This document shows positions 19,824 through 58,468 of a stretch of 64,000 bases of DNA, piece by piece. The stretch's first letter is position 1. The number at the start of each line of letters is the position of its first letter. The translations under genes were made by a program, and so were the position numbers. The stretch comes from Succinivibrio dextrinosolvens DSM 3072 (lineage in GTDB: Bacteria; Pseudomonadota; Gammaproteobacteria; Enterobacterales; Succinivibrionaceae): NCBI RefSeq assembly GCF_900167015.1, contig NZ_FUXX01000010.1, positions 1 through 64,000 of the forward strand, given 5' to 3'. Under the pieces are notes generated by a model, which did not search any database, was not told the DNA's origin, and worked only from the letters and a program-made list of their open reading frames with translations.

Positions 19824-20441
19824 TTATTTTTTCAAGTAAGTTGTCAGGGCAGGGGTTAAAAAATCTGAGATGTAACTTTTGATCCTGCCTGATCCGATTA
19901 CTTTGCTATCCGACATGCACCAGATAGTCATCAGCCCGTAGAGATGTGCGTTTATCTGAACTGTAAAGTCTTCAATAGGGAAATATTCTGATAATTCACC
20001 ATGTTTCACAGCATCTGCAAATACTGAATACAAAGCCTTATTGTCATACTGGTATTTTGTAAACTGTGGTTCTTCAGGCATTGGCAGAGGTTTTATGTTA
20101 TTTCTTGTCCACTGCCTGCATGTTTCAATGCCGGCTCTTTCAATTGCCAGAAGAAAGTTTTCACAGTAATACTCAAGTCTTTCGATCAAAGTTTTATCTT
20201 TCATCTTGATAACTGTCTGCGCCAGAATATAGAAATCCAGTTTGTTGAGTTCTGAAATAACATCTTCTTTCTTTTTGAAGTATGTATAAAAGGAACCGGT
20301 ACTTACCTTGGCTTCCTTTGTAATTTCGCTGATTGAGATTTCATCAAATCCTTTTTGGGACAGGAGCTTTTTTGCTGCATTAACAATTTTCTTTTTTGTT
20401 TCTAATGCATCCTGCTGGCGTTTTGTTAGCTTTTCACTCAT
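19824..20441 (-). CDS. TetR-family repressor of the reductase operon
   Basis: The 205-aa protein has an N-terminal helix-turn-helix (about 12-60): KKIVNAAKKLLSQKGFDEISI, then TKEAKVSTGSFYTYFKKKEDV. The C-terminal ligand domain is variable as usual. A GGAGTCATC ribosome site precedes the ATG. It is the first gene of a tetR-akr-akr operon, and three inverted repeats with TGAAT half-sites lie directly upstream. It is therefore a probable autorepressor that responds to a reactive aldehyde or similar inducer. Confidence 0.88.
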   Translation of the reverse strand: MSEKLTKRQQDALETKKKIVNAAKKLLSQKGFDEISISEITKEAKVSTGSFYTYFKKKEDVISELNKLDFYILAQTVIKMKDKTLIERLEYYCENFLLAIERAGIETCRQWTRNNIKPLPMPEEPQFTKYQYDNKALYSVFADAVKHGELSEYFPIEDFTVQINAHLYGLMTIWCMSDSKVIGSGRIKSYISDFLTPALTTYLKK

Positions 20442-20473
20442 GATGACTCCTTTTTTTGTATATTATAATATAT

Positions 20474-20517
20474 ATTGAATAAAATTCAATGAATATGATT
20501 CAATGAACCTTATTCAT
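20474..20517. promoter_or_regulatory. Operator array upstream of tetR
   Basis: Three inverted repeats share TGAAT/ATTCA half-sites: ATTGAAT-AAA-ATTCAAT (20474-20490), TGAAT-ATG-ATTCA (20490-20502) and ATGAA-CCTTA-TTCAT (20503-20517). They lie 33-76 bases upstream of the tetR start and are likely binding sites for the TetR protein. Confidence 0.7.
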
Positions 20518-20669
20518 CATAATCATCAATTAAAAGTGAATCATCATAATGGTGTTTTTTTGTTTTATAACAAAAAGATATAACTGAATATAAAAAAATA
20601 GAATTGGCATTATAAAAAAAATATTCAGATAATAGAGTAAACAAAAAAAGCGTTGCTTTATATAAAAAG

Positions 20670-20688
20670 ATTAGAAAGAAATTCTAAT
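20670..20688. promoter_or_regulatory. Inverted repeat upstream of the cysteine-tail peptide
   Basis: ATTAGAA (20670-20676), 5 bases, TTCTAAT (20682-20688) form a perfect 7-bp palindrome, 38 bases upstream of the small peptide start. It may be an operator for the nitrogenase-like operon or part of its leader. Confidence 0.4.
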
Positions 20689-20725
20689 TAAAAAAATAGT
20701 AGTACCTAGAAAAGAGTATTAAAAC

Positions 20726-20866
20726 ATGCAAAAGTTCAATCAGTTATTTACAGCAGAAGCTGACCGAGGAGAGAAGTTTTCTAATGTTCTCTCCGATATC
20801 AATTCCATCAATTTCATTTCTTCTCAAATGTGCAGATGCAGTTGCATGTGTAAATGCAAGTGTTAA
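20726..20866 (+). CDS. 46-aa peptide with C-terminal CxCxCxCxCxC tail
   Basis: A short frame starts at an ATG at 20726, 9 bases after an AAAGAG element, and ends at a TAA at 20864-20866. The first 35 residues are ordinary and polar (MQKFNQLFTAEADRGEKF...). The last eleven are CRCSCMCKCKC, with cysteines at 36, 38, 40, 42, 44 and 46. I do not recognise the family. It lies 89 bases upstream of the NifX-like gene, on the same strand, with no terminator between. It could be a cysteine-sensing attenuation leader, a metal or Fe-S carrying peptide, or a ribosomally made precursor. The frame is too short for codon statistics, so the call rests on the tail and its position. Confidence 0.6.
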   Translation: MQKFNQLFTAEADRGEKFSNVLSDINSINFISSQMCRCSCMCKCKC

Positions 20867-20955
20867 TCAGTCAAGCTGAATAAATCAGTTCAATTTAAAA
20901 AATATTTTTCCTTAATCGTATATACAGATCAGTTATGGCTGGTCAGGGGGATTTT

Positions 20956-21807
20956 ATGTCCTTTAAAATTGCAGTCGCAACATCAGATGGTATCAATATT
21001 GATACCGAATATTCAAAAGCTACAAAGTTTCTCATTCTTAATGTAGATGACGAAGGTAACTATCATAGTGAAGGGTATCTGCATAACTACAGTATTAGTA
21101 TTGATGGCTGCGGTTCATGTGTAGGCTGCCACGGTGGATGTCAGGCAAATGAAACTGAATTTCTCTGGGAATGCAGCTATGTTCTTGCAACGTCGTTTTC
21201 TCATCGCATTACCAAGCTTCTCAACCGTATTTATATTGATACTCTTGAGGTTAATCTCCCTATAGAGAAAGCATTGCCTAAGGTTATAGCCTTTGAGAAC
21301 AGAAGATCAAATTTTGGAAAAAATCTGAAAACTTCCGTATGGGTACCACCAAGAAATGCTACTGAAGAATATGTTCCTCAGAATGACTCTTCAGCTGATA
21401 ACACCAATGCTGTTACTGAGAAAGAAAGTGTTCAGTTTTCACCTGCTGTTTCTAACAGGACAGGTCTGACCAGAGTTGCAGTTGCCAGTTCAGATGGAAA
21501 GGTAGTTAACAGACACTTTGGTCATGCCCAGGATTTTTATATTTATGAGCTACGTGACAATCTTGCCTACTTTCTTGAAAAGCGCTCTGTTCAAAGCTGC
21601 TGCAACGGTGGAGGCCACACTATTGACTCCTTTAATTCTGTAGCTTCTGTAATTTCTGACTGTAAAGCGGTAGTGGTCGCGAAAATCGGGCAGGGTGCTT
21701 CTTCATTTCTTGAAAACAAAGGTTTCGAGGTATTTGAGGCTCCTTACCTTATAAGCAGAGTCCTGGACAAGATAATCAAAGACAGATTGCTGGAGTCTGC
21801 CGCATGA
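20956..21807 (+). CDS. Two-domain NifX/NafY-like cofactor-binding protein
   Basis: The 283-aa protein contains two copies of the dinitrogenase iron-molybdenum cofactor domain, at about 3-115 (FKIAVATSDG) and 165-275 (TRVAVASSDGKVVNRHFGHA), joined by a polar linker. Such domains bind or ferry FeS cofactor precursors made by NifB. The first copy carries an unusual CGSCVGCHGGC insert and the second an SCCNGGGH loop, so both may hold metal. I start it at the ATG at 20956 because AGGGGGA sits 6 bases upstream; a longer frame from 20935 has no such site. It overlaps the nifB-like gene by 4 bases (ATGA). Confidence 0.85.
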   Translation: MSFKIAVATSDGINIDTEYSKATKFLILNVDDEGNYHSEGYLHNYSISIDGCGSCVGCHGGCQANETEFLWECSYVLATSFSHRITKLLNRIYIDTLEVNLPIEKALPKVIAFENRRSNFGKNLKTSVWVPPRNATEEYVPQNDSSADNTNAVTEKESVQFSPAVSNRTGLTRVAVASSDGKVVNRHFGHAQDFYIYELRDNLAYFLEKRSVQSCCNGGGHTIDSFNSVASVISDCKAVVVAKIGQGASSFLENKGFEVFEAPYLISRVLDKIIKDRLLESAA

Positions 21808-22679
21808 CCGCTAATTATCAGGAACTCTGCCTAAAACATCCATGCTACGCAAAGGGAAAGAAAGCTCAGACAGGAAGAATTCACCTGCCTGTAAGTCCGG
21901 GCTGTAATATCGGCTGCAGATTTTGCGACAGAAAATTCAATGATTATGAAAAGCGCCCAGGAGTGTGCAGCTCGATTTTAAAACCAGCAGAAGCTGTGGA
22001 AGTTGTCAGAAAATCTCTGGAGCTGTGTAAGGATATCACTGTTGTCGGAATTGCAGGTCCCGGTGATACCCTGGCTACTCCATATGCACTGGAGACTTTT
22101 CGCCTTATCAGAAAGGAATTTCCAAAGCTGTTTCTTTGCATGAGTACCAATGGATTACTACTAGAGGAGAAAGCAGAAGAAATCATAGAAACCGGGGTTG
22201 ATTCGGTAACTGTAACGGTTAACGCGGTTGATCCTGTTATTGAAGCTTTGTTGAACAGCTTCGTTATCTACCACAGAAAAAGATATGAGGGAGTAGAGGG
22301 AGCAAGACTGTTAATTGAGAAACAGCTTAATGGCATAAGAAAGCTAGCTAAAGCAGATGTGACGGTCAAAATCAATACCGTTCTGGTTCCAGAGATAAAT
22401 CTTTATCACATTGAAACTATAGCAAAAACCGTAAAGGAAGCCGGAGCGTCAATCTACAACATTATCCCGTTAATCCCTCAGTACGAGCTATCAATGTGCT
22501 CAGTGCCAAACTGTGCACAGATAGATTCATCAAGACGACTTGCGGAAAAGTATCTTGATGTTTTTAAACACTGTCAGCATTGTAGAGCTGATGCAATTGG
22601 CGTTCCTGGAGAAAAGGACTTCAGTTCCGAGATTTACAGCAGAAAGCTTAATCTTGCTGAAACCTTTTCCCATGGATAG
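21804..22679 (+). CDS. nifB: NifB-like radical SAM cofactor maturase
   Basis: NifB fuses two [4Fe-4S] clusters with an SAM-derived carbon to make the 8Fe core of nitrogenase-type cofactors. The 291-aa protein has the HPCY start motif, the radical SAM triad CNIGCRFC (Cys34, 38, 41), RPGVCS, GIAGPGDTLATP, and the C-terminal CxxCRADAIG. All additional cysteines expected for auxiliary clusters appear present. It lacks the C-terminal NifX domain found in many NifB proteins; that function is supplied by the preceding gene. It is the only NifB in the window, so it must serve both D/K pairs if both carry such a cofactor. Confidence 0.9.
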   Translation: MTANYQELCLKHPCYAKGKKAQTGRIHLPVSPGCNIGCRFCDRKFNDYEKRPGVCSSILKPAEAVEVVRKSLELCKDITVVGIAGPGDTLATPYALETFRLIRKEFPKLFLCMSTNGLLLEEKAEEIIETGVDSVTVTVNAVDPVIEALLNSFVIYHRKRYEGVEGARLLIEKQLNGIRKLAKADVTVKINTVLVPEINLYHIETIAKTVKEAGASIYNIIPLIPQYELSMCSVPNCAQIDSSRRLAEKYLDVFKHCQHCRADAIGVPGEKDFSSEIYSRKLNLAETFSHG

Positions 22680-22752
22680 ATGATTCACTGTGTTTTAGCT
22701 TTTACCGGCACTAAAAATTAAACAACAACCAGAAAGGTTGATGGAGAACACA

Positions 22753-24369
22753 ATGGCAAAAAAAATAAATCTTGAAATGAGCGCGGTAGAAAACCGTGAA
22801 ATGAGACTGGGTACCATCATCGGATGGGATGGTCCTGCCTCAGAGCTTGTAAAAGATTCAAACTATATAGAACGATCACAACGTTTTGAAGGAATTAAAA
22901 CATCTGGCTGCGCAGGCGGATGCGGTTCAAGAAAGGCTTGTAAACTCTGTGAGCTTAACTCTCCTTTGAATCAGCAGACAATGTGTGCAAACGCAATTGT
23001 TGAGTGTCAGATTGGAAATATCACCGACTGTATTCTGATTCAGCATGCTCCAATTGGCTGTTCTGGCGATAATCCATGGTTTAATCTGGCTTTTAACATG
23101 GGATTAGGTCGTCGTAATAAACCACCTCAGAATTTGAAAATCTACAGCACCAATCTGCTTGAGAGTGACATGGTTTTCGGCGCTTCTGACAAGTTAAGAA
23201 GAACCTGTCGTACGGTATTTGAGCGTGAGCATCCTAAGGCAATCTTTATCTCTATGGCCTGTGCTACAGCAATTATTGGTGAAGATATCGATTCTATCGC
23301 AGATGAAATGGAAAGTGAGCTTGGGATTCCTGTGGTTCCTCTTCACTGCGAAGGCTTCCGCTCAAAACACTGGAGTACTGGTTTTGATGTTTCCCAGCAT
23401 GGTGTGGTTCGCCAGATTGTAAATAAGAATCCTGTTAAGCAGAAAGATCTTATCAATATCGTAGCCCTCTGGGGAACAGATTACTTCACTCCTCTCCTAA
23501 AACCATTAGGTCTCAGAGTCAATTACATGATTGATATGGCAAGCTTTGATGAACTGCGTCAGGCCAGTGAAGCAGTAGCTACTGCAACCTTCTGTAATAC
23601 TCTTGGCTCTTATATGGCTACAGCCTTGGAGCAGGAATATGGTGTTCCTCAGATTGATGCTCCTCAGCCATACGGTTTTAAGGGAACAGATGAATGGTTA
23701 AGAGCAGTTGCTCATGTGGTAGGCAAGGATGACATTATCGAAGATTACATCAGCTCAGAGCACGAAAGGGTTCTTCCTAAGGTGAATGAACTTCGCGAAA
23801 AGTTCAAGGGAGTTAAAGGCTTTGTAATGACAGGTTCTGCCTATGCTCATGGTCTTATCACTGTGTTAAGGGAGCTTGGAATTGAAGTTGATGGCTCCAT
23901 CGTCTTCCATCATGATCCGATCTACGATGGTGCCGGTGTTCATCAGAATACTCTGGAGGAACTTGTAAATACCTATGGTGACATTAAGAACTACACCGTA
24001 AGTAAAACTGAAGCTTATCAGCTATCTAATATCTTCAACCGAATCGAGAAACCTGATTTTGTAATCATTAGACATCAGGGCCTTGCACCTGAGGCGGCAA
24101 AACTAGGTATTCCTGCTCTTGCTATGGGTGATGAGCATATCCCTGTAGGTTATGACGGTCTGATTCGCACTGGTGAAATCATTCTTGACATTATGGCAAG
24201 AAAGAAATTCAACCGTGTGCTCTCAAAGCACATTAAGCTTCCTTATACCGACTGGTGGCTGTCTCAGAGTGATCCTTTCCTTTTATCTCATGATCCTAAG
24301 GCTCTGGATAAAGTTGTTCCGCTTGAGAATGATGTTGATTATGAAGATGAATTAGACGAGGCTGTTTAA
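22753..24369 (+). CDS. NifD-like catalytic subunit, nitrogenase-like reductase (copy 1)
   Basis: The 538-aa protein aligns with nitrogenase alpha chains. Probable P-cluster ligands are Cys78, Cys103 (QHAPIGC) and Cys170 (MACATAIIGEDI). Cys281 in FCNTLGSYMATALEQEYGVP matches the cofactor ligand Cys275 of Azotobacter NifD. In the EGFR segment (about 200-211) the residue matching catalytic His195 is Phe211, and the Gln191 position is not Gln, which argues against N2 fixation. Four extra cysteines (53, 57, 63, 66) precede the P-cluster region. I start at 22753, where GGAG lies 6 bases upstream and the N-terminus then matches copy 2; the frame itself begins with a TTG at 22738. Confidence 0.88.
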   Translation: MAKKINLEMSAVENREMRLGTIIGWDGPASELVKDSNYIERSQRFEGIKTSGCAGGCGSRKACKLCELNSPLNQQTMCANAIVECQIGNITDCILIQHAPIGCSGDNPWFNLAFNMGLGRRNKPPQNLKIYSTNLLESDMVFGASDKLRRTCRTVFEREHPKAIFISMACATAIIGEDIDSIADEMESELGIPVVPLHCEGFRSKHWSTGFDVSQHGVVRQIVNKNPVKQKDLINIVALWGTDYFTPLLKPLGLRVNYMIDMASFDELRQASEAVATATFCNTLGSYMATALEQEYGVPQIDAPQPYGFKGTDEWLRAVAHVVGKDDIIEDYISSEHERVLPKVNELREKFKGVKGFVMTGSAYAHGLITVLRELGIEVDGSIVFHHDPIYDGAGVHQNTLEELVNTYGDIKNYTVSKTEAYQLSNIFNRIEKPDFVIIRHQGLAPEAAKLGIPALAMGDEHIPVGYDGLIRTGEIILDIMARKKFNRVLSKHIKLPYTDWWLSQSDPFLLSHDPKALDKVVPLENDVDYEDELDEAV

Positions 24370-24372
24370 AGT

Positions 24373-25743
24373 ATGACATTAGAAACAAAGAATTCTGACG
24401 TAAAAAAGAAAGAAAAACACGATGAATCTATTGTGCATTCTCATTATGCATGTACTGTAGGCGCAGCCTATTCTGTGTCCGCTATTAAGGGAGCAGTTCC
24501 TATCGCTAACTGCGGTCCAGGCTGTATGTATAAGCAGTTCTTTTTCCTAAGTTTTGATAATGGCTTTCAGGGAACCGCAGGCGTAAGCGGAGGAAATATC
24601 CCTAGCGCCAATGTTGGAGAAAATGACATTGTCTTTGGAGGCTCAAAGAAGCTCGATGATCTGATAAAGGCTTCTATTGGTGTGGTCAAAGGTGATCTTT
24701 ATGTGGTTCTGACCGGCTGTTCTGGCGAACTGGTGGGAGATGATGTTGGTTCTGTGGTAAGAAAATATCAGCAGAACGGCTATCCTGTCGTCTATGCGGA
24801 TACCGGTGGTTTTAAAGGCTCAAATCTTGATGGTCATGAGCTGGTGGTAAATGCAATTATTGATCAGTATGTAGGCAGCTACAACGGACCAAAGGAGGCT
24901 GGTTTAATCAATCTATGGCTAGAGACCCCATACTTTAATCAGAACTGGAGAGGTGATTACCTTGAGATGGTGAGAATTCTCAGAGCCTCCGGCTTTAGGG
25001 TAAATGTCCTCTTTGGACCTGAAAGTGGCGGTGTCAAGGAGTGGAAGAACATTCCAAAAGCTGATTTCAATCTGCTTATCTCCGCCTGGAATGGCCTAAA
25101 GATAGTTAAACATCTGGAGAAGAAATACCACCAAAGATATCTGCATGTACCTATTCTTCCAATCGGGGAGGAGGCTACTACCGCCTTTATCCGACAGGTG
25201 GTTGAGTTTGCCGGAATTGATAATACCAAAGCAGAAAAATTCATCAGTGAGGAATCTCGAATTTACTATTACTTCCTGGAGCATTTCTCAAACTTCTTCT
25301 CGGAGTACTGGTATGGACTGCCTGCAAAATTTGCAACCGTCACCAACAGTACAGACAATCTTGCTCTAACCAAGTTTCTTTCAGATCAGATTGGTTTAAT
25401 TCCTGTTAAACAGATTATTACTGACAATCCTCCTGATGAAGCAAGAGACAAAATCAGAACCATCTACAGCAATCTTGGAGAAGACATAAGTCTTGACGTG
25501 GAGTTTCATGAAGATGGTTACAAGGTAGAGGATTCTCTAAAGAAAACTGACTTTGGCAATGGCGTTCCGCTGATTCTTGCAAGCTCATGGGAAGCTGACG
25601 TAGCAAGAGAGCTTAAGGCTCTTTTAATAGAAGTAGGAACTCCTTCAACGGAGACTCTGATTATTAACCGCAGTTTTATCGGATATAGAGGCGCTCTTTC
25701 TCTAATCGAAAGAATCTACTCTCAGGCCGTAGGCGGCAAATAG
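24373..25743 (+). CDS. NifK-like beta subunit (copy 1)
   Basis: The 456-aa protein is the partner of the preceding D-like subunit, 3 bases downstream. P-cluster-type cysteines are at YAC (27), CGPGC (47 and 51) and LTGCSGELVGDD (116), the last matching the TTCMAEVIGDD motif of NifK. It is shorter than Mo-nitrogenase NifK (about 520) because the N-terminal extension is missing. The C-terminal GYRGALSLIERIYSQ helix is as in other K chains. It should hold the P-cluster at the D/K interface and relay electrons from NifH to the active site. Confidence 0.87.
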   Translation: MTLETKNSDVKKKEKHDESIVHSHYACTVGAAYSVSAIKGAVPIANCGPGCMYKQFFFLSFDNGFQGTAGVSGGNIPSANVGENDIVFGGSKKLDDLIKASIGVVKGDLYVVLTGCSGELVGDDVGSVVRKYQQNGYPVVYADTGGFKGSNLDGHELVVNAIIDQYVGSYNGPKEAGLINLWLETPYFNQNWRGDYLEMVRILRASGFRVNVLFGPESGGVKEWKNIPKADFNLLISAWNGLKIVKHLEKKYHQRYLHVPILPIGEEATTAFIRQVVEFAGIDNTKAEKFISEESRIYYYFLEHFSNFFSEYWYGLPAKFATVTNSTDNLALTKFLSDQIGLIPVKQIITDNPPDEARDKIRTIYSNLGEDISLDVEFHEDGYKVEDSLKKTDFGNGVPLILASSWEADVARELKALLIEVGTPSTETLIINRSFIGYRGALSLIERIYSQAVGGK

Positions 25744-25755
25744 TTTTGTTAGTAA

Positions 25756-26616
<861 letters not shown>

Positions 26617-26620
26617 AGCC

Positions 26621-26668
26621 GGCCTAATTCTATGAGCATGATTAGGCCCTTAACATTTAATCATGCTC
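26621..26668 (+). promoter_or_regulatory. Two competing hairpins between nifH and ferredoxin genes
   Basis: Stem A pairs GGCCTAAT (26621-26628) with ATTAGGCC (26641-26648). Stem B pairs GAGCATGATTA (26634-26644) with TAATCATGCTC (26658-26668). The arms overlap at 26641-26644, so only one can form. No T run follows. The element may protect the nifH mRNA end or tune read-through to the ferredoxin and nifS genes. Confidence 0.6.
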
Positions 26669-26708
26669 AATGCTAATTATTAACATGCTTTAGAGCAAGG
26701 AATTGTAT

Positions 26709-26903
26709 ATGTATTTTATTGATAAGAGCATCTGTACTCAATGTGGAGAATGTGCTGCCTCATGTCCATTCGAATCTATTGTTGAGCAGGAGGATGGTTC
26801 TTTTGTAATTGATGCTCATATCTGCACCGAGTGTGGCGAATGTCAGCTGAACTGTCCTTTTGAGGCTATCTGTGAGAAGGATGAGAATAAGGAAAGTGCC
26901 TAG
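26709..26903 (+). CDS. 2[4Fe-4S] ferredoxin
   Basis: The 64-aa protein has two clostridial-type cluster motifs, CTQCGECAASCP and CTECGECQLNCP, and nothing else. It should carry low-potential electrons to NifH. The ATG at 26709 is preceded at 7 bases by AAGGA; an in-frame TTG at 26703 is less likely. Its stop codon touches the nifS start (TAG-ATG). Confidence 0.92.
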   Translation: MYFIDKSICTQCGECAASCPFESIVEQEDGSFVIDAHICTECGECQLNCPFEAICEKDENKESA

Positions 26904-28043
26904 ATGATTATTTATGCCGATAACGCTGCTACAACAAAACTTTCAGATAAGGCTTTAAAGGCAATGCTGCCTTTTTTTACGGACAATTATGCAAACCCGT
27001 CAAGTGCTCATTTTTTTGGGCAGAAAGCTCAAGATGCTTTAAGATGGGGGCGCTTTACCGTAGCAAAATGTCTTAATGCTGGAGCTAATGATAAGCTTAT
27101 TTTTACTTCTGGCGGTAGTGAAGCGGATAATCAGGCATTAAATTCAATAGCACAGTCAGGTCTTAAGAATAACAAAAAACATATTATTTCATCAAAGTTT
27201 GAACATCATGCTGTTCTCTACACTTTAGAACAGTTAAAGAAATATGGTTTTGAAATAGAGCTCTTAGATATTCCCGAAGATGGAATAATAGAACCTTCTG
27301 CCGTTGAGTCTGCCATAAGGCCTGATACGGCTGGGGTGTCAATTATGCTTGCCAACAACGAGATTGGCACGGTTCAGCGTATAGACGAAATTGGATCTAT
27401 ATGCAGAAAGGCAGGTGTGCTTTTTCATACTGATGCAGTTCAGGCTGTAGGTCATATTCCGGTTGATGTTGATAACCTAAATGTGGATTATCTATCCTTC
27501 TCCTCTCATAAGTTTCATGGGCCTAAAGGGGTAGGTGGACTTTATGTCAGAGAGGGGGCTCCTATTTCTTCTGTTATAAATGGCGGCTCTCAGGAGTTTG
27601 GCTTCAGAGCTGGTACAGAGAATCTTCCCGGTATTATAGGTACGGCAGTTGCTTTAGAAGAGTCTTTGGAGAATCTTGATTATAAAATAGCTCAGACTAC
27701 TGCTGTCAGGACCTATATTCAGAATGAAATCACAGCAATTCCATCGGTTAAACTGAATGGAGATCCTTTAAAAAGGTTACCAGGCAATCTGAATTTTTCT
27801 TTTGAGGGGGTTGATGGAGATTCTCTGCGGTATTTGCTTGAAGAGAAAGGGATCTGTGCGTCTGCTGGTTCCGCCTGCAACAGCTCATCATCTAAACCAA
27901 GTCATGTTTTAAAAGCTTTAGGTCTGTCGGATGCTCTTAGTAAAAGTGCTTTAAGACTTTCATTTGATGAAACTCTGAGTATCCAGGAGGCTGTGTATAT
28001 TATCTCCTCGATTAAGGAGGTTCTAAGCGAGCTTTGGAATTAG
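26904..28043 (+). CDS. nifS: NifS-like cysteine desulfurase
   Basis: NifS takes sulfur from cysteine for Fe-S cluster building. The 379-aa class V aminotransferase has YADNAATTKLS at its start, SSKFEHHAV with the PLP-stacking His, the PLP lysine Lys203 in SSHKFHGPKG, and catalytic Cys325 in SAGSACNSSSSKPS. The long SAC loop is the NifS/IscS type, not the SufS type. Its place directly after the ferredoxin in this operon suggests supply of sulfur for the H, D, K and B clusters. Its role is still shared with any housekeeping IscS elsewhere. Confidence 0.92.
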   Translation: MIIYADNAATTKLSDKALKAMLPFFTDNYANPSSAHFFGQKAQDALRWGRFTVAKCLNAGANDKLIFTSGGSEADNQALNSIAQSGLKNNKKHIISSKFEHHAVLYTLEQLKKYGFEIELLDIPEDGIIEPSAVESAIRPDTAGVSIMLANNEIGTVQRIDEIGSICRKAGVLFHTDAVQAVGHIPVDVDNLNVDYLSFSSHKFHGPKGVGGLYVREGAPISSVINGGSQEFGFRAGTENLPGIIGTAVALEESLENLDYKIAQTTAVRTYIQNEITAIPSVKLNGDPLKRLPGNLNFSFEGVDGDSLRYLLEEKGICASAGSACNSSSSKPSHVLKALGLSDALSKSALRLSFDETLSIQEAVYIISSIKEVLSELWN

Positions 28044-28072
28044 CCTGTAAAATAACACTGGCTAATGGACCC

Positions 28073-28103
28073 AAAAAAAGACAGTCATACAGACTGTCTT
28101 TTC
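28073..28103. terminator. Bidirectional terminator between nifS and glgA
   Basis: A 9-bp perfect stem, AAGACAGTC (28078-28086) with GACTGTCTT (28092-28100), is flanked by seven A on the left and TTTTC on the right. It can end both the nif-like operon and the converging glg genes. Confidence 0.85.
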
Positions 28104-28118
28104 TAGGTATATAATTTT

Positions 28119-29579
28119 TTACCACTTAGGTTTCTGCAGTGCACTCTTGTACAGAGCTTCGTACTGAACACAACTGTCAGACCAGTTGAATCGAACCTTC
28201 ATTGCGTTCTGCTTGATTCGTTTCATCTCAGCATTATTCTCAAGATACAGAATCAGTGTTCTTCTTAAGCAGGACAGCAACTCTTCAGAATTAGGATCCT
28301 TGAAGATAAAGCCTGTACCGTTCTCACGGTCAGTATCATAATCTACAACGGTATCCTGTAGACCACCTACCGCACGCACGATAGGAAGAGTACCGTATGC
28401 CAGTGAGTAAATCTGATTTAGACCGCAAGGCTCGAAGATTGATGGCATCAGGAAGAAATCTGCTGCAGCCTCAATCTGGTGAGCAAGCATATTGTCATAA
28501 ACAGACTTGAAGACCATCTTACCAGGATGTCTGTTGGCGATTTCCTCCATCTGCTTCTGCAGAGCAGGATCACCAGTTCCTTCGATGACAACCTGCACCT
28601 TGTGCTGCAGGAATCTGTCAAGAATCGGAATAAGCAGACCGATACCTTTCTGATCAGTCAGACGGGCAACCATACCGTACATTGGGGTATCACCCATCTC
28701 AAAGCCGAGCTTACGCTGTAATAGATATTTACCTAAGATCTTCTGATCAAGGGTATTAACGTCATAACGTATTCTCAAAAGCTGGTCAGTTGCAGGATCC
28801 CAGTCAGAGTAGTCACAACCGTTGATGATACCTGACAGATCCATCTGTCTGTCAATAAAGTTCTGGGTCATACCGTGACCACCGATGTATGAGGTTAATT
28901 CCTTTGCATAACCAGGAGAAACGGTATTAATCTTATCAGCGTAGAATACACCACACTTTAAGAAGTTAATGAATGAACCCTGTGAAACCTTGTCATTGTA
29001 GATACCACTGATTTCTGGGAGATAAGAAATCTGAGATCTGTCAAATACGCCCTGGAATGCTCCATTGTGGATGGTAATCACTGAGCGTGATTTCTCAAAG
29101 AATGGATCATTAGCATATTTGATGCGTAACAGCATAGGTGCAAGACCGGTATGCCAGTCGTTACAGTGGAGAATATCAAACTGGAAACCGATAATTTTTG
29201 CTGTTTCAATTGCTGCGGCAGAGAAGAATGCATAGCGATAACCGTTGTCACCATAGGCTTCATTGTTGTCGCCATACATTGATGTTCTGTCGAAGTACTG
29301 TGGACAGTCGATCAGCAATACTTCAACCTTTGAGTTGAGAATAGCTTTTCTGACTTTGTAGGGAATATGTAACTTAACGTCTGAGTGAGACTTGTTAAGT
29401 ACACCTTCAGCAATGATTGGTAAATCCTGCCAGCCTTTGATGATTGAATAGCAAGGAAGCACAATTTTAACATCGTGTCCTCTTGCCTGTAATTCCAAAG
29501 GAAGGGCCTTTGCCACATCAGCAAGGCCACCGGATTTAACAATATCTGCAACTTCAGATGATAATAATAATACTTTCAC
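28119..29579 (-). CDS. glgA: Glycogen synthase
   Basis: GlgA adds ADP-glucose to growing glycogen. The 486-aa GT5 enzyme has the ADP-glucose-binding KSGGLADV near the start (about 15-22), a GYRYAFFS segment, and the C-terminal PSIFEPCGLNQIYSLAYGTLPIVRAVGGL motif with the catalytic Glu. It starts at a GTG (29577-29579) behind AGGGGA. glgC lies upstream by 40 bases and supplies its substrate. No branching enzyme or phosphorylase is in the window. Confidence 0.95.
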   Translation of the reverse strand: MKVLLLSSEVADIVKSGGLADVAKALPLELQARGHDVKIVLPCYSIIKGWQDLPIIAEGVLNKSHSDVKLHIPYKVRKAILNSKVEVLLIDCPQYFDRTSMYGDNNEAYGDNGYRYAFFSAAAIETAKIIGFQFDILHCNDWHTGLAPMLLRIKYANDPFFEKSRSVITIHNGAFQGVFDRSQISYLPEISGIYNDKVSQGSFINFLKCGVFYADKINTVSPGYAKELTSYIGGHGMTQNFIDRQMDLSGIINGCDYSDWDPATDQLLRIRYDVNTLDQKILGKYLLQRKLGFEMGDTPMYGMVARLTDQKGIGLLIPILDRFLQHKVQVVIEGTGDPALQKQMEEIANRHPGKMVFKSVYDNMLAHQIEAAADFFLMPSIFEPCGLNQIYSLAYGTLPIVRAVGGLQDTVVDYDTDRENGTGFIFKDPNSEELLSCLRRTLILYLENNAEMKRIKQNAMKVRFNWSDSCVQYEALYKSALQKPKW

Positions 29580-52699: not shown

Positions 52700-54058
52700 C
52701 TAAGGATTTTCTCTAACTGCGGATGAGTAAATCTGCTCAATCAGACTCAGAGCGCCTTTATATCCAACGTAAGAACGGTTGATCACCACCTCCTCTGTGG
52801 TAATGGTTCCAACTTCTAGCAGAACCGCTCCTTTTTCCTTTGCAACGTCTCTCTCCCATGAGGAGCCGATGATAAGAGGCGTTCCACTTCCAAAATCAGT
52901 ATCTTTGATCTGCTGCTCTGCTATATATCCATCCTCTATAAACTGAACATCCACATCAACACCCTCTGTTATATTGTGATATATATCCTTGATGTTGTCC
53001 TTGTGTGCTTCAGGAGTATTATCTGTAATAATCTGCTTTACCGGAATAAGTCCCATCTGATCAGAGAGAAATCGTGTAAATGCCAGGTTGTAGGCAGAAT
53101 CTGAAACTACAGCAAACTGGGAAGGAAATCCGAACCAGTACTCTGCAAAGAAATCTGCAAAATGATCAAGATAGTAGTAATACTTGTCAGCTTCCTTTTT
53201 GATGAATCGTTCGCTCTGAGTATTTGCTATTCCTGAAAATTCCACAACCTTTCTGACAAATCTGGTGGTTTCCTCTTCACCGATAGGTATAACCGGAATA
53301 TGCAGGTAAGGCTGATCGAATTTCTCCTCTAACAGCTTTGCTGTACTTAGTCCAACCCATGGTGAGATTACAAGATTAAATGCTGCGTTTGGAATATTCA
53401 GCCAGTCTTTGCCCCCCTGACTTTCCGGTCCAAAAAGAATATTCACCTCAAAGCCGCTGTTCTGCAGGATGCGAACTATTTCCTCGTAGTCACCTCTCCA
53501 GAAAGTGTTGAAGTAAGGAATTTCAAAAAAGAGATTTACGAGATTTTTCTGCTTCTCTCCTTTGACGTAATTCTTTTCTACAAACTGTTCGATAATCGAG
53601 TTAACTACGACCTCGTGTCCATAGATATTGTTACCTTTAAAGCCTGGTATTTCAGCATTTACGATTGGTATTCCCTGTTTCTGATAACGGCTGACAACTG
53701 ACTGCACATCATCACCAACAAGGGCAGGAGAACAGCCTGTCAGCACCACATAGAGATCACCATTCATGATCTTTACTGCTCCGCTTATGGCTTTATCAAG
53801 CTTTGCAGCTCCTCCAAAAACAATCTCCTTTTCACCAGAGTTAGTTCCAGGAATATCTCCTCCTCCAATTCCGACAGATCCCTGAAAACCATTACAGAAT
53901 GACATTGTGAAATACTGCTGATCCACACATCCCGGTCCGCAGTTAATTATAGGTACAGCATTCTTGATAGCTGAAACTGTGTAGGCTGCACCAAGTGAGC
54001 AGGCATAATGTGGATGAGTGATTGATGTGTTCTTCTTTTTTTTCTTAGCTGTATTCAT
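52700..54058 (-). CDS. NifK-like beta subunit (copy 2)
   Basis: The 452-aa protein is closely similar to copy 1 (24373-25743) through its whole length. Cysteines in P-cluster positions are at 20 (HYAC), 40 and 44 (CGPGC) and 109 (LTGCSPALVGDD). Differences cluster in the segment after CGPGC (VDQQYFTMSF against MYKQFFFLSF), near the likely cluster and D interface. It is last in an operon behind an ABC importer. There is no nifH beside it, so it should share the H protein at 25.8 kb. Confidence 0.87.
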   Translation of the reverse strand: MNTAKKKKKNTSITHPHYACSLGAAYTVSAIKNAVPIINCGPGCVDQQYFTMSFCNGFQGSVGIGGGDIPGTNSGEKEIVFGGAAKLDKAISGAVKIMNGDLYVVLTGCSPALVGDDVQSVVSRYQKQGIPIVNAEIPGFKGNNIYGHEVVVNSIIEQFVEKNYVKGEKQKNLVNLFFEIPYFNTFWRGDYEEIVRILQNSGFEVNILFGPESQGGKDWLNIPNAAFNLVISPWVGLSTAKLLEEKFDQPYLHIPVIPIGEEETTRFVRKVVEFSGIANTQSERFIKKEADKYYYYLDHFADFFAEYWFGFPSQFAVVSDSAYNLAFTRFLSDQMGLIPVKQIITDNTPEAHKDNIKDIYHNITEGVDVDVQFIEDGYIAEQQIKDTDFGSGTPLIIGSSWERDVAKEKGAVLLEVGTITTEEVVINRSYVGYKGALSLIEQIYSSAVRENP

Positions 54059-54064
54059 TTTGTT

Positions 54065-55609
54065 TTATCTCTGGTCTATTTCGATTAGTTCAGGATCTCT
54101 TGCGAGTATGAAAGGATCGTTCTGTGCCAGCCACCAGTCAGAGTAGGGCAGTTTTACATGTCTTTTCAGAACCTGATTGAATTTCTTTCGGGCAAGAATA
54201 TCTAAAATTGCTTTGCCGGTTCTGATTATTCCATCGTATCCGACAGGAAAATGCTCATCTCCCATTGCAAAGGAAGGAATTCCCATACGGGCTGCATTAG
54301 GAGCCAGACCATTGTGACGGACAATGATGAAATCAGTATCAACATTTCTTAGAATTACCGGTAACTGGAAAGGCTGAGTCTTACTTACAGAGTAGTTTGG
54401 AATATCTCCATAGTTTTCTACCAGAGTCTTTAAGGTATCCTGGTTTTCTTTGCCTCCGTCATAAACAGGATCATGATGGAAAACAACTGATCCGTTAACC
54501 TCAATTCCGAGTTCTCTTAAAACCGAAATCAGGCCGTGAGCATAGGCGGAACCAGTAATAACAAAGCCTTTTACTCCTTTAAGCTTGGTCTTTAATGATT
54601 CAATTTCGTCGTGAACTCTCTCGTGTTCACTCTGTATGTATTTTTCTGTCTCCTCAACTTTGTCCACAACCCTTGCTATTGCTCTTAACCATTCGTCGGT
54701 TCCTTTAATGCCGTATGGCTGTGGGGCATCAATCTGCGGTACACCGAACTGCTGTTCAAGACCTGTGGCAAGATATGAGCCCAAAGTATGGCAGAATGTT
54801 GTTGTCGCTACAGCCTCTGATGTTTGTGCAAGCTCATCAAAACTTGCAATATCCATGATGTAGTTAACACGAAGTCCCAGTGGTTTGAGCATATCGGTAA
54901 AGTAGTCTGTACCCCATAGCGCAACAATATTGATAAGATCTTTCTGTTTTTTAGGATTCCTCTTGGTTATCTGCCTTAAAACACCGTGCTGGGCAATATC
55001 AAATCCAGTACTCCAGTGTTTTGATCGGAATCCTTCACAGTGAAGGGGAATTACAGGGATGCCAAGCTCCTCCTCCATCTCGTCCGCTACACTGGTGATA
55101 TCTTCACCGATGATAGCGGTAGAACAGGACATAGACAGAAAGATTGCTTTTGGATGATATCTGTCAAAAGTTTCCTGAACCGTTTTTCGTAGCTTTTCAC
55201 TTGCTCCAAAAACCATATCGTTTTCCATAAGGTTTGTGGTAACTATGTTGATATTACGTGGTTCGAGATTTCGTCTTGCCAGTCCATTACGCATGGCAAG
55301 ATTAAATTCAGGATTTCTGGCAGTACAGCCAACCGGACTATGCTGAATCAGTACACAATCCCTAAGATTTCCTGCCTGACATGAGGCAATTGAATTTGCA
55401 CACATACTCTGCTGATTGAAAGGCATCTCAAGTTCGCAGAGTCTGCATCCATTTTTTTTTCCGCAATCAAACTCTCTTTTGATTAGACTGCGTCCTTCGT
55501 AATTGGATTGCATCACCAGATCTGATGCTGTACCAGTCCAGGATGTAATGGATCCTAATCTCATTTCTCGATTTTCAACGGTATCGAGTGCTAAATTAAT
55601 CTGTTTCAT
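54065..55609 (-). CDS. NifD-like catalytic subunit (copy 2)
   Basis: The 514-aa protein is closely similar to copy 1 and has the same likely ligands: Cys70, Cys95 and Cys162 for a P-cluster, and Cys273 in FCHTLGSYLATGLEQQFGVP for the cofactor. Phe203 replaces the nitrogenase His195, as in copy 1. Extra N-terminal cysteines are three here (49, 55, 58), one fewer than in copy 1. AMGDEHFPVGYDGIIRTG near the end is shared. The strongest local difference is after the second P-cluster cysteine (GCTARNPEFN against GCSGDNPWFN), so substrate or redox behaviour may differ. K follows after 6 bases. Confidence 0.88.
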   Translation of the reverse strand: MKQINLALDTVENREMRLGSITSWTGTASDLVMQSNYEGRSLIKREFDCGKKNGCRLCELEMPFNQQSMCANSIASCQAGNLRDCVLIQHSPVGCTARNPEFNLAMRNGLARRNLEPRNINIVTTNLMENDMVFGASEKLRKTVQETFDRYHPKAIFLSMSCSTAIIGEDITSVADEMEEELGIPVIPLHCEGFRSKHWSTGFDIAQHGVLRQITKRNPKKQKDLINIVALWGTDYFTDMLKPLGLRVNYIMDIASFDELAQTSEAVATTTFCHTLGSYLATGLEQQFGVPQIDAPQPYGIKGTDEWLRAIARVVDKVEETEKYIQSEHERVHDEIESLKTKLKGVKGFVITGSAYAHGLISVLRELGIEVNGSVVFHHDPVYDGGKENQDTLKTLVENYGDIPNYSVSKTQPFQLPVILRNVDTDFIIVRHNGLAPNAARMGIPSFAMGDEHFPVGYDGIIRTGKAILDILARKKFNQVLKRHVKLPYSDWWLAQNDPFILARDPELIEIDQR

Positions 55610-55615
55610 CGGTAT

Positions 55616-56539
55616 CTATTCTTTCCATCTAAAAAAACGGTTTTCTATCTTGCGTAAAATGTAGGTAACAGTACTTACTACAATTCCTAAAACCACCAGT
55701 CCAACCATGATTCTGGTGAAGTTACCAAAACGCGCGTAGTACTGAATATAAAAGCCAAGACCGCTTCCTCCTCCAATCATCTCTGCCGAGGTGAGCATGA
55801 TAAAGGACAGTGAAATTGCGATATTGCATCCGGAAAAGACCTGAGGTAGTGATGCCGGTAAAATGATCTTGAATAGGATCTGTGCTTTTTTTAGATTCAG
55901 AACCTTTGCCGAATTTATTATTTTGGAATCAACATTCAGAACTCCATTCATTGTTGAGGTCAGAATAGGCCAGAATGAAGTTATGAAAATAATAAAAATC
56001 GAACAAGCCTTAAATGAAGGCAGCAGAGCAAGAGTGTAGGGAATAAAAACTACTGGAGGAATAGAGCCCAAGAAGCTTGCTACACTTGAGAATGCTCTTC
56101 CTGTTCTTGCGTTAAAGGCAAGAAACAGCCCCAGAGGAATTGCAGCTGAAAGTGCCAGCGTAAAACCGATAACAATTATGGATAAAGAACAGCCTATATC
56201 CACAATCAGACGTAGATAGTCTCCCAAAAACTGCTTTACGATTACACCTGGGGCCTTAAAGATATCCTCAGGAAGAATATTCAGCTTTGCGGTTAACATA
56301 AGCCACACAAAAAGAGATGTACTGATTATCGCAAATGTGTCCATTATCAGAGTTCTCTGTTCATCTTTTCTTGCGAGGAACAAAACAATGAAAAATGAAA
56401 CCTCCAGCAGCAGAATGAATCCTAATGCATAATCATTCTGTGCGGAGCGCTTTAAATGATCCTCAAGTCCAAATGCACTTAGAACAAAGAGGAGCACAAA
56501 TAAGTTGTTCAGATTAAAAACAGCGGATTTTAAATTCAT
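55616..56539 (-). CDS. ABC importer permease (NitT/TauT/Ssu type)
   Basis: The 307-aa protein has about seven hydrophobic segments and the EAA-type loop (about 220-240: INSAKVLNLKKAQILFKIILPASLPQVFSG) that contacts the ATPase. It resembles SsuC/TauC permeases, but an N-terminal part of about 60 residues adds extra membrane segments. It lies 6 bases before the D-like gene and 6 bases after the binding-protein gene, so import and reduction are tightly co-expressed. Confidence 0.87.
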   Translation of the reverse strand: MNLKSAVFNLNNLFVLLFVLSAFGLEDHLKRSAQNDYALGFILLLEVSFFIVLFLARKDEQRTLIMDTFAIISTSLFVWLMLTAKLNILPEDIFKAPGVIVKQFLGDYLRLIVDIGCSLSIIVIGFTLALSAAIPLGLFLAFNARTGRAFSSVASFLGSIPPVVFIPYTLALLPSFKACSIFIIFITSFWPILTSTMNGVLNVDSKIINSAKVLNLKKAQILFKIILPASLPQVFSGCNIAISLSFIMLTSAEMIGGGSGLGFYIQYYARFGNFTRIMVGLVVLGIVVSTVTYILRKIENRFFRWKE

Positions 56540-56545
56540 AATTAT

Positions 56546-57637
56546 TTAGTTAGAGCGTTGATGGTACTGGTACAGTTCTTTATAAACAGCATCATTTTCG
56601 TTTTCTTTGACAAGTTCATTTAGTGCCTGCTCATATAGAGCTGCTGTATAGTTAGGCTTGATGTCAAATTCCTTTACAAAGCCAAGGTCAACAAGACTGT
56701 CATAGAAAACGTCCATTCGCTTCAGATCCGGATCCGGATTTGCAATTTCGTTATCGTATTTGTAGGTGTCTGCAAGTAGCAGATCTTCATCAACGTCTAC
56801 ATACTTGGCGATGTCCTTAATTGATTGACTTTCGTTTGTTTTATAGAATTTGTAAGCCTTGATTAGTGCTCTGATAAAGTGTTTGTATGTTTCAGGCTCT
56901 GCCTTAAGTTTGTCTGTAAGTATTGCCTGACGACAGCAGACATGATTGTCAAATCCTTCAACATCTCCACTGTTTGCAAGAATTGTATAGCCTTCGTTTT
57001 CTGCCAGAATTCTGTAAGGTGCATAAAGTACTGCCGCATCGATTTCATCATTTTTTAATGAGGCATATACATCAGAGCCGTCGTTGAACATTACGAATTC
57101 AGTATCTTTATCCAAACCGAGTTTTTTCAGCGCTTCTCTGATTACAATGTGTCCAGATCCAATGCCTTCCACACCAATCTTCTTGCCTGCCAGTAGTTTG
57201 ATAGACCATTCTTCCTTTGGTATTCCTTTTACAATCCTGTCCTTTACAATAATTCCATGACCGGTTTTCATTGCACCTGCGAACAGGGAAATCTTGTGGC
57301 CTTCAGACATATAACTTACAAGTTCACTTGATCCATAGGCGCCAACATCGATTTTTCCTGATTCCATTGCGGCAAGTTCACTGTTGTTTTCATTAAACAG
57401 AACCAGCTCGGCATTAATTCCTTCCTCTTCAAAAAATCCTTCTTCCTTAGCAAGAAAATACAGCAGATGTCCTGGAGATGGCAGGTAGCCTATTCTTACG
57501 GTTGTAAGTTCTGAAGAGTGATTCTGATGCTCTTGATGTGCTGCGTGTTCATCCGTTTTTTTATCGTCCCCACAACCTTGAACTGCCGACAGAAGTAAAG
57601 CTAAAGATATAACCTTTAATGTGTTCTTAAATTTCAT
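56546..57637 (-). CDS. Substrate-binding lipoprotein with His-rich linker
   Basis: The 363-aa precursor has a lipobox (AVQGC) and then a histidine-rich linker (DEHAAHQEHQNHSS, about 28-41). The rest is a NMT1/SsuA-like binding domain: RIGYLPSPGHLLYFLAKEEGFFEEEG, the GKIDVGAYGSSEL loop and KKIGVEGIGSG. Similar proteins bind sulfonates, nitrate or aromatic acids. The linker with five histidines might bind metal, which would be unusual for this class. The ligand is unknown, but the operon suggests it is the substrate of the D2K2 reductase. Confidence 0.87.
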   Translation of the reverse strand: MKFKNTLKVISLALLLSAVQGCGDDKKTDEHAAHQEHQNHSSELTTVRIGYLPSPGHLLYFLAKEEGFFEEEGINAELVLFNENNSELAAMESGKIDVGAYGSSELVSYMSEGHKISLFAGAMKTGHGIIVKDRIVKGIPKEEWSIKLLAGKKIGVEGIGSGHIVIREALKKLGLDKDTEFVMFNDGSDVYASLKNDEIDAAVLYAPYRILAENEGYTILANSGDVEGFDNHVCCRQAILTDKLKAEPETYKHFIRALIKAYKFYKTNESQSIKDIAKYVDVDEDLLLADTYKYDNEIANPDPDLKRMDVFYDSLVDLGFVKEFDIKPNYTAALYEQALNELVKENENDAVYKELYQYHQRSN

Positions 57638-57661
57638 TTTTTTTTCCTTATGTTGTTTAAA

Positions 57662-58468
57662 TCATCCCGCTAGTGCAAATTCAAATTCAGGCTCACGAAC
57701 GTTTCCATACAGTGAGTCAATGAGCTCGGCACGTAGTGTTTCATAGTCTCTGGTTTTTCTAATATCAGAGCGGTTTCTTGGTCTTGCGAATGGAACTTTT
57801 ATCTCTTTATATACATGTCCTGGATTTTCAGAGAAAACTACAATCTTGTCTGACAGAAGTATTGCTTCGTCTATATCGTGAGTTACAAAGATTACTGTCT
57901 TGTTTTTTTCTGAAGATGACCATAACTCCAGTACCAGGTCCTGAAGAGAACTTTTATTCTTTGCATCTAAAGCACCAAAGGGTTCGTCCATGATCAGAAT
58001 ATCTGTATCCATGGCAAGAGCTCTTGCAATAGCAACTCGCTGCTGCATGCCGCCTGAAAGCTGAGAGGGGAATTTGTTTTTGAACTGCTCAAGATGAACC
58101 AGATCCAGAAAATGATTTGCAAGCTTTGTAACTTCTTTCCTGCTAAGCTGTTTTTTAGCCTGCTGAATTCCAAATTCTGTATTTTTTAGTGCGGTCATCC
58201 AGTGAAAAAGAGAATAATGCTGGAATACCACACCTCTATCTGTACCGGTTCCTTTTACTTCTTTTCCGTCAATTAGGATTCTGCCGGAAGTTGGCTTTAG
58301 AAGTCCTTCCAATACACTCAGGAATGTACTTTTTCCACAGCCAGATGCTCCGACAATACTTACGAATTCTCCTGACTTTACAGAAAAGGAAAGATCTTTG
58401 AGAGCTTCAAAGGTCTGATTGGGGGTCTTGTATTTTACACATAAATTTTCAACATCTATTTTATTCAT
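57662..58468 (-). CDS. ABC importer ATPase (NitT/TauT/Ssu type)
   Basis: The 268-aa ATPase has Walker A GASGCGKST (38-46), the Q-loop in VVFQHYSLFHW, signature LSGGMQQRVAIARA, Walker B LIMDEPFGALD and the switch His in VTHD. The SsuB/TauD-like RDRSDIRKTRDYE-type tail is typical of the sulfonate and nitrate family. It is the first gene of ATPase, binding protein, permease, D2, K2. Confidence 0.92.
   Translation of the reverse strand: MNKIDVENLCVKYKTPNQTFEALKDLSFSVKSGEFVSIVGASGCGKSTFLSVLEGLLKPTSGRILIDGKEVKGTGTDRGVVFQHYSLFHWMTALKNTEFGIQQAKKQLSRKEVTKLANHFLDLVHLEQFKNKFPSQLSGGMQQRVAIARALAMDTDILIMDEPFGALDAKNKSSLQDLVLELWSSSEKNKTVIFVTHDIDEAILLSDKIVVFSENPGHVYKEIKVPFARPRNRSDIRKTRDYETLRAELIDSLYGNVREPEFEFALAG

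Follow-up and report, generated by a model that had tools for sequence, protein, structure and literature searches.

A candidate C-S bond reductase system related to methylthio-alkane reductase, probably serving sulfur acquisition, in Succinivibrio dextrinosolvens

What is the function of a nitrogenase-like operon in a genome where nifE, nifN and nifV were not found? We addressed this question for an operon (operon 1) at positions 20726-28043, plus strand, of a 64,000-nt stretch (the window) of contig NZ_FUXX01000010.1 of Succinivibrio dextrinosolvens DSM 3072. On this single strand, with tight spacing, lie a leader open reading frame (ORF), a double NifX-domain protein (X1), NifB (B1), a D and a K subunit (D1 and K1), NifH (H1), a ferredoxin and NifS. 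An earlier interpretation of the DNA, the sequence-only reading, had placed these seven proteins in one operon and named methylthio-alkane reductase (MAR) as the nearest characterised enzyme. All the genes it listed were present, but it overlooked the leader ORF, a second D/K pair (D2 and K2) and the importer beside that pair. Given the length of the main genes and the number of their homologues, chance is no issue in their identification. With a probability of roughly three in four, our analyses point to a MAR-like system of the nitrogenase superfamily that reduces C-S bonds for sulfur acquisition.

D1 (22738-24369, with ATG 22753 as the likelier start) and K1 (24373-25743) were MarD- and MarK-type subunits, as were D2 (54065-55609) and K2 (52700-54058), which are encoded on the minus strand of the same window. 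The two D subunits were 67.7% identical to each other and the two K subunits 59.7%. When compared with Rhodospirillum rubrum, D1 shared 55.9% of 497 aligned residues with MarD and D2 56.9%, and both K1 (437 residues) and K2 were 51.7% identical to MarK. In searches of the PDB, D1 reached 649 and 648 bits with the MAR entries 9FMG and 9D9U versus 132 with the best non-MAR chain, and K1 reached 534 bits versus 54. Both proteins stayed far under every NCBIfam nif cut-off. Similarly, an AlphaFold2 model of D1 built from 25 sequences (predicted local distance difference test 79.9, predicted template modelling score 0.82) superimposed on 9FMG_A with a Z score of 43.0 and a root-mean-square deviation of 1.9 over 463 residues. 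The next match after the MAR entries was NifEN (Z score 29.0, deviation 2.5, 396 residues). MAR therefore stood as the nearest characterised enzyme; the sequence-only reading did not point out that the reductase is of NifH rather than MarH type.

According to the structural description of MAR (PMC12552129), the P-cluster is bound by Cys66, Cys91 and Cys158 of D and by Cys32, Cys56 and Cys121 of K, and the active-site [Fe8S9C] cluster by Cys270 and His429, with Arg428 as a hallmark and Trp195, His194 and His375 surrounding the cluster. Our alignment revealed that all these P-cluster cysteines were kept in both D/K pairs, and that Cys270, His429, Arg428, Trp195, His194 and His375 were identical in D1 and D2. 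Phe199, Cys73 and Gln74 of MarD were likewise kept, and each of the two D subunits preserved 12 of 12 MAR hallmark positions. The Arg-His pair (428/429) was absent from the NifD, AnfD and NifE rows. At the sites of NifD Gln191 and His195, which are Gln and His in the NifD and AnfD references (MarD positions 195 and 199), D1 and D2 carried Trp and Phe. The phenylalanine had been recognised earlier as Phe211, counted from ATG 22753; it is Phe216 of the listed ORF and aligns with MarD Phe199.

In a quick D tree of 85 out of 107 rows (22 near-copies were dropped), D1 and D2 fell into a 31-row clade of anaerobes from the gut and other habitats, hereafter the gut clade, with a support of 99 in the Shimodaira-Hasegawa-like approximate likelihood ratio test. 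This clade was sister to a 20-row clade containing R. rubrum MarD (96), and their union had a support of 100. D1 and D2 were not nested among the MarD sequences, and NifD, AnfD and NifE lay outside the union. The quick K tree (79 rows) gave the same picture, with supports of 99 for the gut clade and 100 for its union with MarK, and the K subunits outside the NifK, AnfK and NifN references. Thus, the placement of D and K outside true nitrogenases, expected from the sequence-only reading, was borne out against references that did not include VnfD. In both trees, D2 and K2 formed a subclade (99) with the Ruminococcus loci L036 and L028. As a separate observation, cysteines at MarD positions 42 and 54 (Cys58 and Cys71 of D1) were found near the N-terminus in almost every row of the MAR and gut groups (22 of 23 and 43 of 45 for position 42, 23 of 23 and 41 of 45 for position 54) and were absent in 15 rows of a group with 42-45% identity. 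A text search of the structure paper (PMC12552129) found no mention of Cys42 or Cys54.

The Fe protein had a different history. H1 (25786-26616, +) scored 463.6 bits with the NCBIfam nifH profile (cut-off 394.35), in line with its earlier description as near-canonical, and was 69-79% identical to four NifH, 65% to one AnfH and 50.6% to MarH. In a careful H tree of 38 rows, 14 MAR/nfl H sequences were split with full support (100/100) from the 15 gut and 9 Nif/Anf sequences, and a tree uniting gut H and MAR-clade H in one clade was rejected (log-likelihood 411 lower; p-AU 0.0002 in the approximately unbiased test). Since H1 groups with NifH/AnfH and D/K with MAR, the three subunits do not have one common history; from the sequences, either the reductase was swapped or it was retained from an ancestor of Nif type. 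The same mismatch between nifH and D/K was reported for Prevotella bryantii B14, with the function unassigned (Inoue et al. 2015; PMC4356463). We rejected the simple equation of the whole system with MAR on the ground that its reductase is NifH-type, and call it MAR-like because H is not of the MarH type.

B1 (21804-22679, +), a stand-alone radical-SAM NifB and the probable maker of an 8Fe cluster, scored 268.5 bits with the NCBIfam nifB profile (cut-off 343.65), where it covers the radical-SAM part only (7-279 of 441), and 264 bits with the NifB structures 7JMA/7BI7. In a quick B tree (36 rows) it grouped with gut B and with the nfl loci L051, L062, L071 and L073, away from nif-type NifB (100). 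B1 is NifB-like, as MarB is. X1 (20956-21807, +) is a probable cluster carrier with two tandem NifX (Nitro_FeMo-Co) domains. Its C-terminal half matched PF02579 and its two halves matched each other by hhalign with a probability of 97.4; ATG 20956, preceded by the Shine-Dalgarno sequence AGGGGG, is a likelier start than 20935, where the listed ORF begins. The operon is completed by a 2[4Fe-4S] ferredoxin matching Pfam Fer4 families (26703-26903, +), the likely electron donor to H1, and a NifS-type cysteine desulfurase (26904-28043, +; TIGR03402, 437 bits, under the cut-off of 530.75).

The absence of nifE, nifN and nifV, first claimed for the window, extended to the whole assembly (2.67 Mb, 97.4% complete). 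PF00148, which covers NifD, NifK, NifE, NifN, BchN, BchB and CfbD, had four matches, namely D1, K1, D2 and K2, and thus neither NifE nor NifN was found in this search. The best NifV candidate, a 546-aa frame, scored 284 bits, below the cut-off of 462.9. H1 was the one gene above the nifH cut-off, a single NifB-type radical-SAM gene was found (the second profile match was the NifX part of X1), and PF02579 occurred in one gene. Direct use of the NifB-type 8Fe cluster, as proposed in the sequence-only reading, fits the [Fe8S9C] cluster described for MAR (PMC12552129), both ligands of which are kept here.

D2 starts 6 bases behind the permease gene of an ATP-binding cassette (ABC) importer (55616-58468, -). 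This importer is of the sulfonate/taurine/nitrate (SsuA/TauA/NrtA) class, with every score under its cut-off. It comprises an ATPase (57662-58468, -; ntrCD 252, SaoA 243 and TauB 213 bits), a substrate-binding protein (56546-57637, -; SsuA_fam 110 bits, cut-off 163.5) and the permease (55616-56539, -; ntrB 116, SaoP 90 and TauC 76 bits). Nine solved structures matched the binding protein, all distantly, the best being 4NMY (49 bits); the taurine-binding 6SSY scored 38.5 bits. The order binding protein-permease-D2-K2 was retained in Ruminococcus L028 and L036. In the stretch inspected of L036, both D/K pairs were accompanied by one H and one B. Because of this arrangement, and because H1, B1 and X1 are each single in the genome, D2K2 probably shares them with D1K1. 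Two further observations were made in the window. A LysR-type regulator (59315-60184, +), transcribed in the direction leading away from the D2 importer operon, is separated from it by some 850 bases that include a BOF-domain gene, and could regulate this second operon. A further binding protein resembling the SsuA family is encoded at 376-1497 (-; 61 bits, below the cut-off), and no importer partner was seen in the ORFs listed around it.

In order to relate the D/K genes to sulfur metabolism, we counted Cys/Met synthesis genes (PF01053 family, CysK and homoserine transferase) within 7 kb of D in 45 gut-clade loci (L005-L047, L052 and L069; 522 kb inspected). Such genes were present at 21 of the 45 loci, and at 19 out of 29 when at least 10 kb had been inspected. 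The corresponding figures were 6 out of 19 in the MAR clade and 13 out of 14 in the 42-45% group. Many gut loci are close relatives and, therefore, these counts are not independent. Proteins of L013, L009 and L028 passed the NCBIfam cut-off for O-acetylhomoserine sulfhydrylase and proteins of L010, L045 and L013 that for cysteine synthase; for scale, a TIGR01326 search detected three PF01053-type genes in the 2.67-Mb genome of S. dextrinosolvens. Importer genes were located near D at 16 of the 45 loci. Two genes above the MetY-type cut-off lie elsewhere in the S. dextrinosolvens genome (contigs C20 and C67). A search for the NIR_SIR domain of sulfite reductase found none in the three genomes of the genus covered (G000, G049 and G010), while 11 out of 14 control genomes and a heliobacterial genome (G004) had a match. 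With no sulfite reductase match, release of sulfite would be a dead end here.

Operon 1 is probably under cysteine attenuation, as judged from its upstream sequence. The leader ORF (20726-20866, +) would encode a putative cysteine-responsive leader peptide of 46 aa with the tail MCRCSCMCKCKC. It has six Cys in its last 11 residues and its stop lies 90 bases before ATG 20956. A yak Succinivibrio (L160, 11551-11691) presents an ORF of the same length in the same place, with the tail MCRCTCMCKCKC and a middle part that has changed almost freely. Among the 1046 window ORFs of 15-90 aa, the leader was the only one with at least six Cys in the last 12 residues, and none appeared in 40 Markov resamples. 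When the same rule was applied to 21185 small ORFs of other loci, three were retrieved: that of L160 and, in the Bacteroidales loci L033 and L043, two that precede a cysK gene neighbouring D/K. Under a looser rule (at least four Cys in 14), leaders preceded 6 of the 26 Cys/Met genes, 2 of the 81 MAR-type cluster genes (one being L160) and none of the 172 others (6/26 versus 0/172, Fisher 3e-6). The ORF upstream of the operon in L006 contains seven Met and five Cys in its last 33 residues and ranked second of 22244 by Met+Cys score. Thus, a Cys-rich or Met/Cys-rich ORF stands ahead of the operon in all three genus genomes that carry it.

Leaders of this kind also precede other sulfur genes of the genus. 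On contig C44 of the S. dextrinosolvens genome (L237:2837-6007), genes for an LCM-type methyltransferase (PF04072), a PF01053 enzyme, whose best NCBIfam match was cystathionine gamma-lyase below the cut-off, and a CysK-like protein (PF00291, PALP) form an operon whose leader ORF ends in YCCNCCC; this layout resembles that of the yrrT-mccA-mccB operon of Bacillus subtilis. At 9 of the 17 PF01053-enzyme loci drawn from 16 of the 19 genus genomes, an ORF with at least three Cys in the last 14 residues ends 104-124 bases before the first gene. After the Cys codons of the operon 1 leader, hairpins are predicted at 20838-20863, 20873-20890 and 20927-20944. From a reading of the two sequences, the last one still pairs in L160, where U-A replaces one A-U pair. 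A promoter-like site, TTGGCA-18-GATAAT (20604-20633, +), matches at 10 of 12 positions and lies within a stretch well conserved with the yak L160; it is weak evidence, as the scan of 20400-28200 gave 15 sites and 17.7 were expected in shuffles. Rfam searches (gathering threshold) of the window and 16 gut-clade loci found neither a riboswitch nor a T-box, the matches being one tRNA in the window and tmRNA and 5S rRNA in two loci. Polycysteine leader peptides have been described before cys and cbs operons in Actinobacteria (PMC1262725), and uORFC-8-2 before cysS in Rhodobacterales (PMC8632094). These known leaders share a short Cys-codon ORF before a sulfur gene, with the Cys near the end in the actinobacterial case. 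They occur in unrelated bacteria, whereas here the ORF precedes a nitrogenase-like operon and no termination element was found in the window. The literature consulted on Cys leaders included none before a nitrogenase-like operon, no search having combined the two subjects.

Altogether, these data are consistent with the following scheme. NifS, B1 and X1 would make and carry a NifB-type [Fe8S9C] cluster, and D1K1 and D2K2 would receive this cluster without the involvement of NifEN, Mo or homocitrate. The ferredoxin would reduce the single Fe protein H1, and H1 with ATP would pass electrons via the P-cluster to [Fe8S9C], where a small organosulfur compound (a thioether, for example a methylthio-alkane) would undergo reductive cleavage of its C-S bond to yield a thiol and a hydrocarbon or another reduced carbon product. 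The thiol could be converted into methionine by MetY-type sulfhydrylases, and then into cysteine by the operon with cystathionine-lyase-like and CysK-like enzymes. D2K2, with an ABC importer to itself, would act as a second isozyme, presumably on a different substrate, and would rely on the H1, B1 and X1 that also serve D1K1. A lack of cysteine (in one relative, also of methionine) would relieve leader attenuation and raise the expression of operon 1. More tentatively, and with the odds rather against it, the gut/rumen clade might represent a distinct class of C-S reductase, in which a true NifH replaces the MarH-type protein, two isozymes work with one reductase and one NifB, non-volatile organosulfur compounds are imported by a dedicated ABC importer, and leader attenuation responds to sulfur amino acids.

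Could a protein of the MAR family do another sulfur job here? An imported anionic sulfonate, or other non-volatile organosulfur compound, might be reduced at the same cluster. The sulfonate/taurine-class importer beside D2K2 and beside other gut-clade D/K genes, residues near the active site that differ from MarD and the failure to find mtnA in the genome speak for it. Nevertheless, sulfonate cleavage as in isethionate reductase (Isr) frees sulfite, for which the genome showed no reductase match, and the importer scores, all below their cut-offs, do not fix the ligand; we consider this unlikely. An Isr working with a sulfonate importer is hardly credible and already contradicted. Although isrBHDK and ssuCAB of Rhodobacter capsulatus stand in a sulfonate locus, IsrD is described as lacking two of the three P-cluster cysteines and the FeMo-co Cys/His, all of which D1 and D2 have, and IsrB as BciD-like, versus the NifB-like B1 (PMC11423573). 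The missing sulfite reductase match argues against this explanation too.

Nitrogen fixation by a group IV nitrogenase, as reported for the Nfa type of Endomicrobium proavitum (cited in PMC9147875), would fit with H1 scoring above the NCBI nifH cut-off. However, the Endomicrobium protein (L080) belongs to a clade that does not include D1 and D2, and at MarD position 194 it carries Ile in place of their His. Moreover, R. rubrum MAR, with the same hallmarks, is described as not reducing N2 (PMC12552129), and neither NifEN nor a NifV above the cut-off was found, which makes this explanation highly improbable. Two D/K pairs per genome with one set of H, B and X might also suggest that D2K2 replaces NifEN as the scaffold for the assembly of D1K1. 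This is very unlikely, considering that D2 carries the full MAR active-site ligand set and hallmark residues, that its Ruminococcus relatives sit with an importer, and that one genome of the genus, hRUG862, has a single D1-type D/K pair alone.

Several observations weigh against a MAR-like function in sulfur acquisition. No biochemical or expression datum was found for any member of the gut clade. The MAR system is not reproduced whole, as H1 is not MarH-type, and in the H tree with a Bch outgroup the support for the NifH/MarH split was 91. Long branches meet in the D, K and B trees, all three of which were quick trees. Because the B genes of the nfl loci L050, L072 and L075 fall on the nif-type NifB side, B does not track D cleanly. 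Residues near the active site (65, 68, 70, 98, 156, 227 and others) differ between the gut clade and MarD. Neither an importer nor a sulfur gene accompanies D in 18 of the 45 relatives, several of them on short contigs, and none of the four types of Cys/Met synthesis gene sought was found within the window. One clade member, Segatella baroniae (G007), has a sulfite reductase match. The R. rubrum route to methylthio-ethanol needs mtnA upstream, and this gene was not found in G000, G049, G010 or G007, though present in G004 and 9 out of 14 controls. For this reason, the dihydroxyacetone phosphate (DHAP) shunt was rejected as an internal supply of methylthio-ethanol, and the substrate must therefore come from outside or differ. 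In addition, the linked CysK uses sulfide, so the product could be sulfide rather than methanethiol. Regarding attenuation, the leader thresholds (at least six Cys in 12, at least four in 14) were set after the leader had been seen, and the six sulfur-gene leaders come from about three lineages: the close relatives L033 and L043; L021, L035 and L042 (Fibrobacter); and L017. A scan revealed no intrinsic terminator in the leader of the window, operon 2 has no Cys-rich leader, and at 22 gene starts of 18 other gut-clade loci no convincing one was found under the rule of three Cys in the last 14 residues, with only a 6-codon ORF preceding L036:1990.

How does the system compare with known ones? 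With MarBHDK of R. rubrum (9FMG, 9D9U; PMC12552129) it shares the D and K subunits, the P-cluster and [Fe8S9C] ligands, the Arg428-His429 motif, Trp195/His194/His375, a NifB-like maturase and the lack of NifEN and NifV. It differs in forming a sister clade (D 56%, K 52% identity), in its NifH-type reductase (H1 50.6% to MarH), in having the double NifX-domain protein and NifS in the operon, in its two D/K pairs and in the leader ORF. The nif-like genes of P. bryantii B14 (now Segatella baroniae; L045) and Fibrobacter succinogenes belong to the same clade. Inoue et al. (2015) noted that the nifE/nifN-like genes stood next to a nifH of the conventional group III, for which they suspected lateral transfer; their account, in its available part, predates MAR and is without the MAR link, the second pair, the sulfur neighbourhood or the leader (PMC4356463). 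IsrBHDK of R. capsulatus is likewise a group IV enzyme with an organosulfur substrate and an Ssu-type importer, but Cys275 is among the FeMo-co ligands that IsrD is described as lacking (PMC11423573). The 42-45% identity group (Paenibacillus, Pelosinus and Endomicrobium), which we label the Nfa/other group IV clade, has Arg428/His429, Trp195, Phe199, the P-cluster cysteines and neighbouring Cys/Met genes in common with our system, and differs in Ile at MarD position 194, its separate clade and, in L068, L073 and L075, a MarH-like reductase. Among the titles listed by our literature searches, none concerned methylthio-alkane reductase in the rumen or gut.

The proposed function would tie the nif-like genes of rumen and other anaerobes to sulfur acquisition, and S. 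baroniae B14 offers a cultured organism in which to test it. That a MarDK-type catalytic component and a NifH-type Fe protein can share one operon bears on the evolution of these modules. For the gut clade, nifH surveys that take such H genes as a sign of nitrogen fixation would be in error. If the substrates are thioethers, the rumen may have a source of small hydrocarbons independent of archaea; should the gut clade be a distinct class, bacteria from several phyla in the rumen would use a nitrogenase-like enzyme to set free thiols and perhaps also ethylene, ethane or methane. The leader makes expression under cysteine or methionine shortage a directly testable claim.

Within the family, D matches occurred in 3 out of 56 genomes, all three in the genus of S. 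dextrinosolvens (19 genomes): its own genome with two D, a yak genome with the two D types spread over three contigs, and hRUG862 (L006) with one D of the D1 type. L005 corresponds to Succinivibrio sp. RGIG10311 from yak rumen. Outside the genus, the closest D1 relatives were found in Clostridia (82% and 80% in the best segments), and lateral acquisition of the system by the genus is likely. Other D/K arrangements were noticed among the genomes compared. Pelosinus propionicus (G002, L075) and Sporomusa silvacetica (G003, L056) had 27 and 20 matches, respectively, in large nitrogenase-like D/K arrays, with many of the genes on one contig (G002:C78 and G003:C105); to our knowledge, these genes outnumber the known functions. 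In L048:9977-14485 and L066:10010-14428, two MarD-like genes flank one MarK-like gene in D-K-D order. In an Oscillospiraceae assembly (L016:10016-11608) the D gene lies in two frames, through decay or sequencing error. MarD homologues were also present in the archaeal lineage Candidatus Methanoplasma of the termite gut (L055, L058, L063, L064 and L065).

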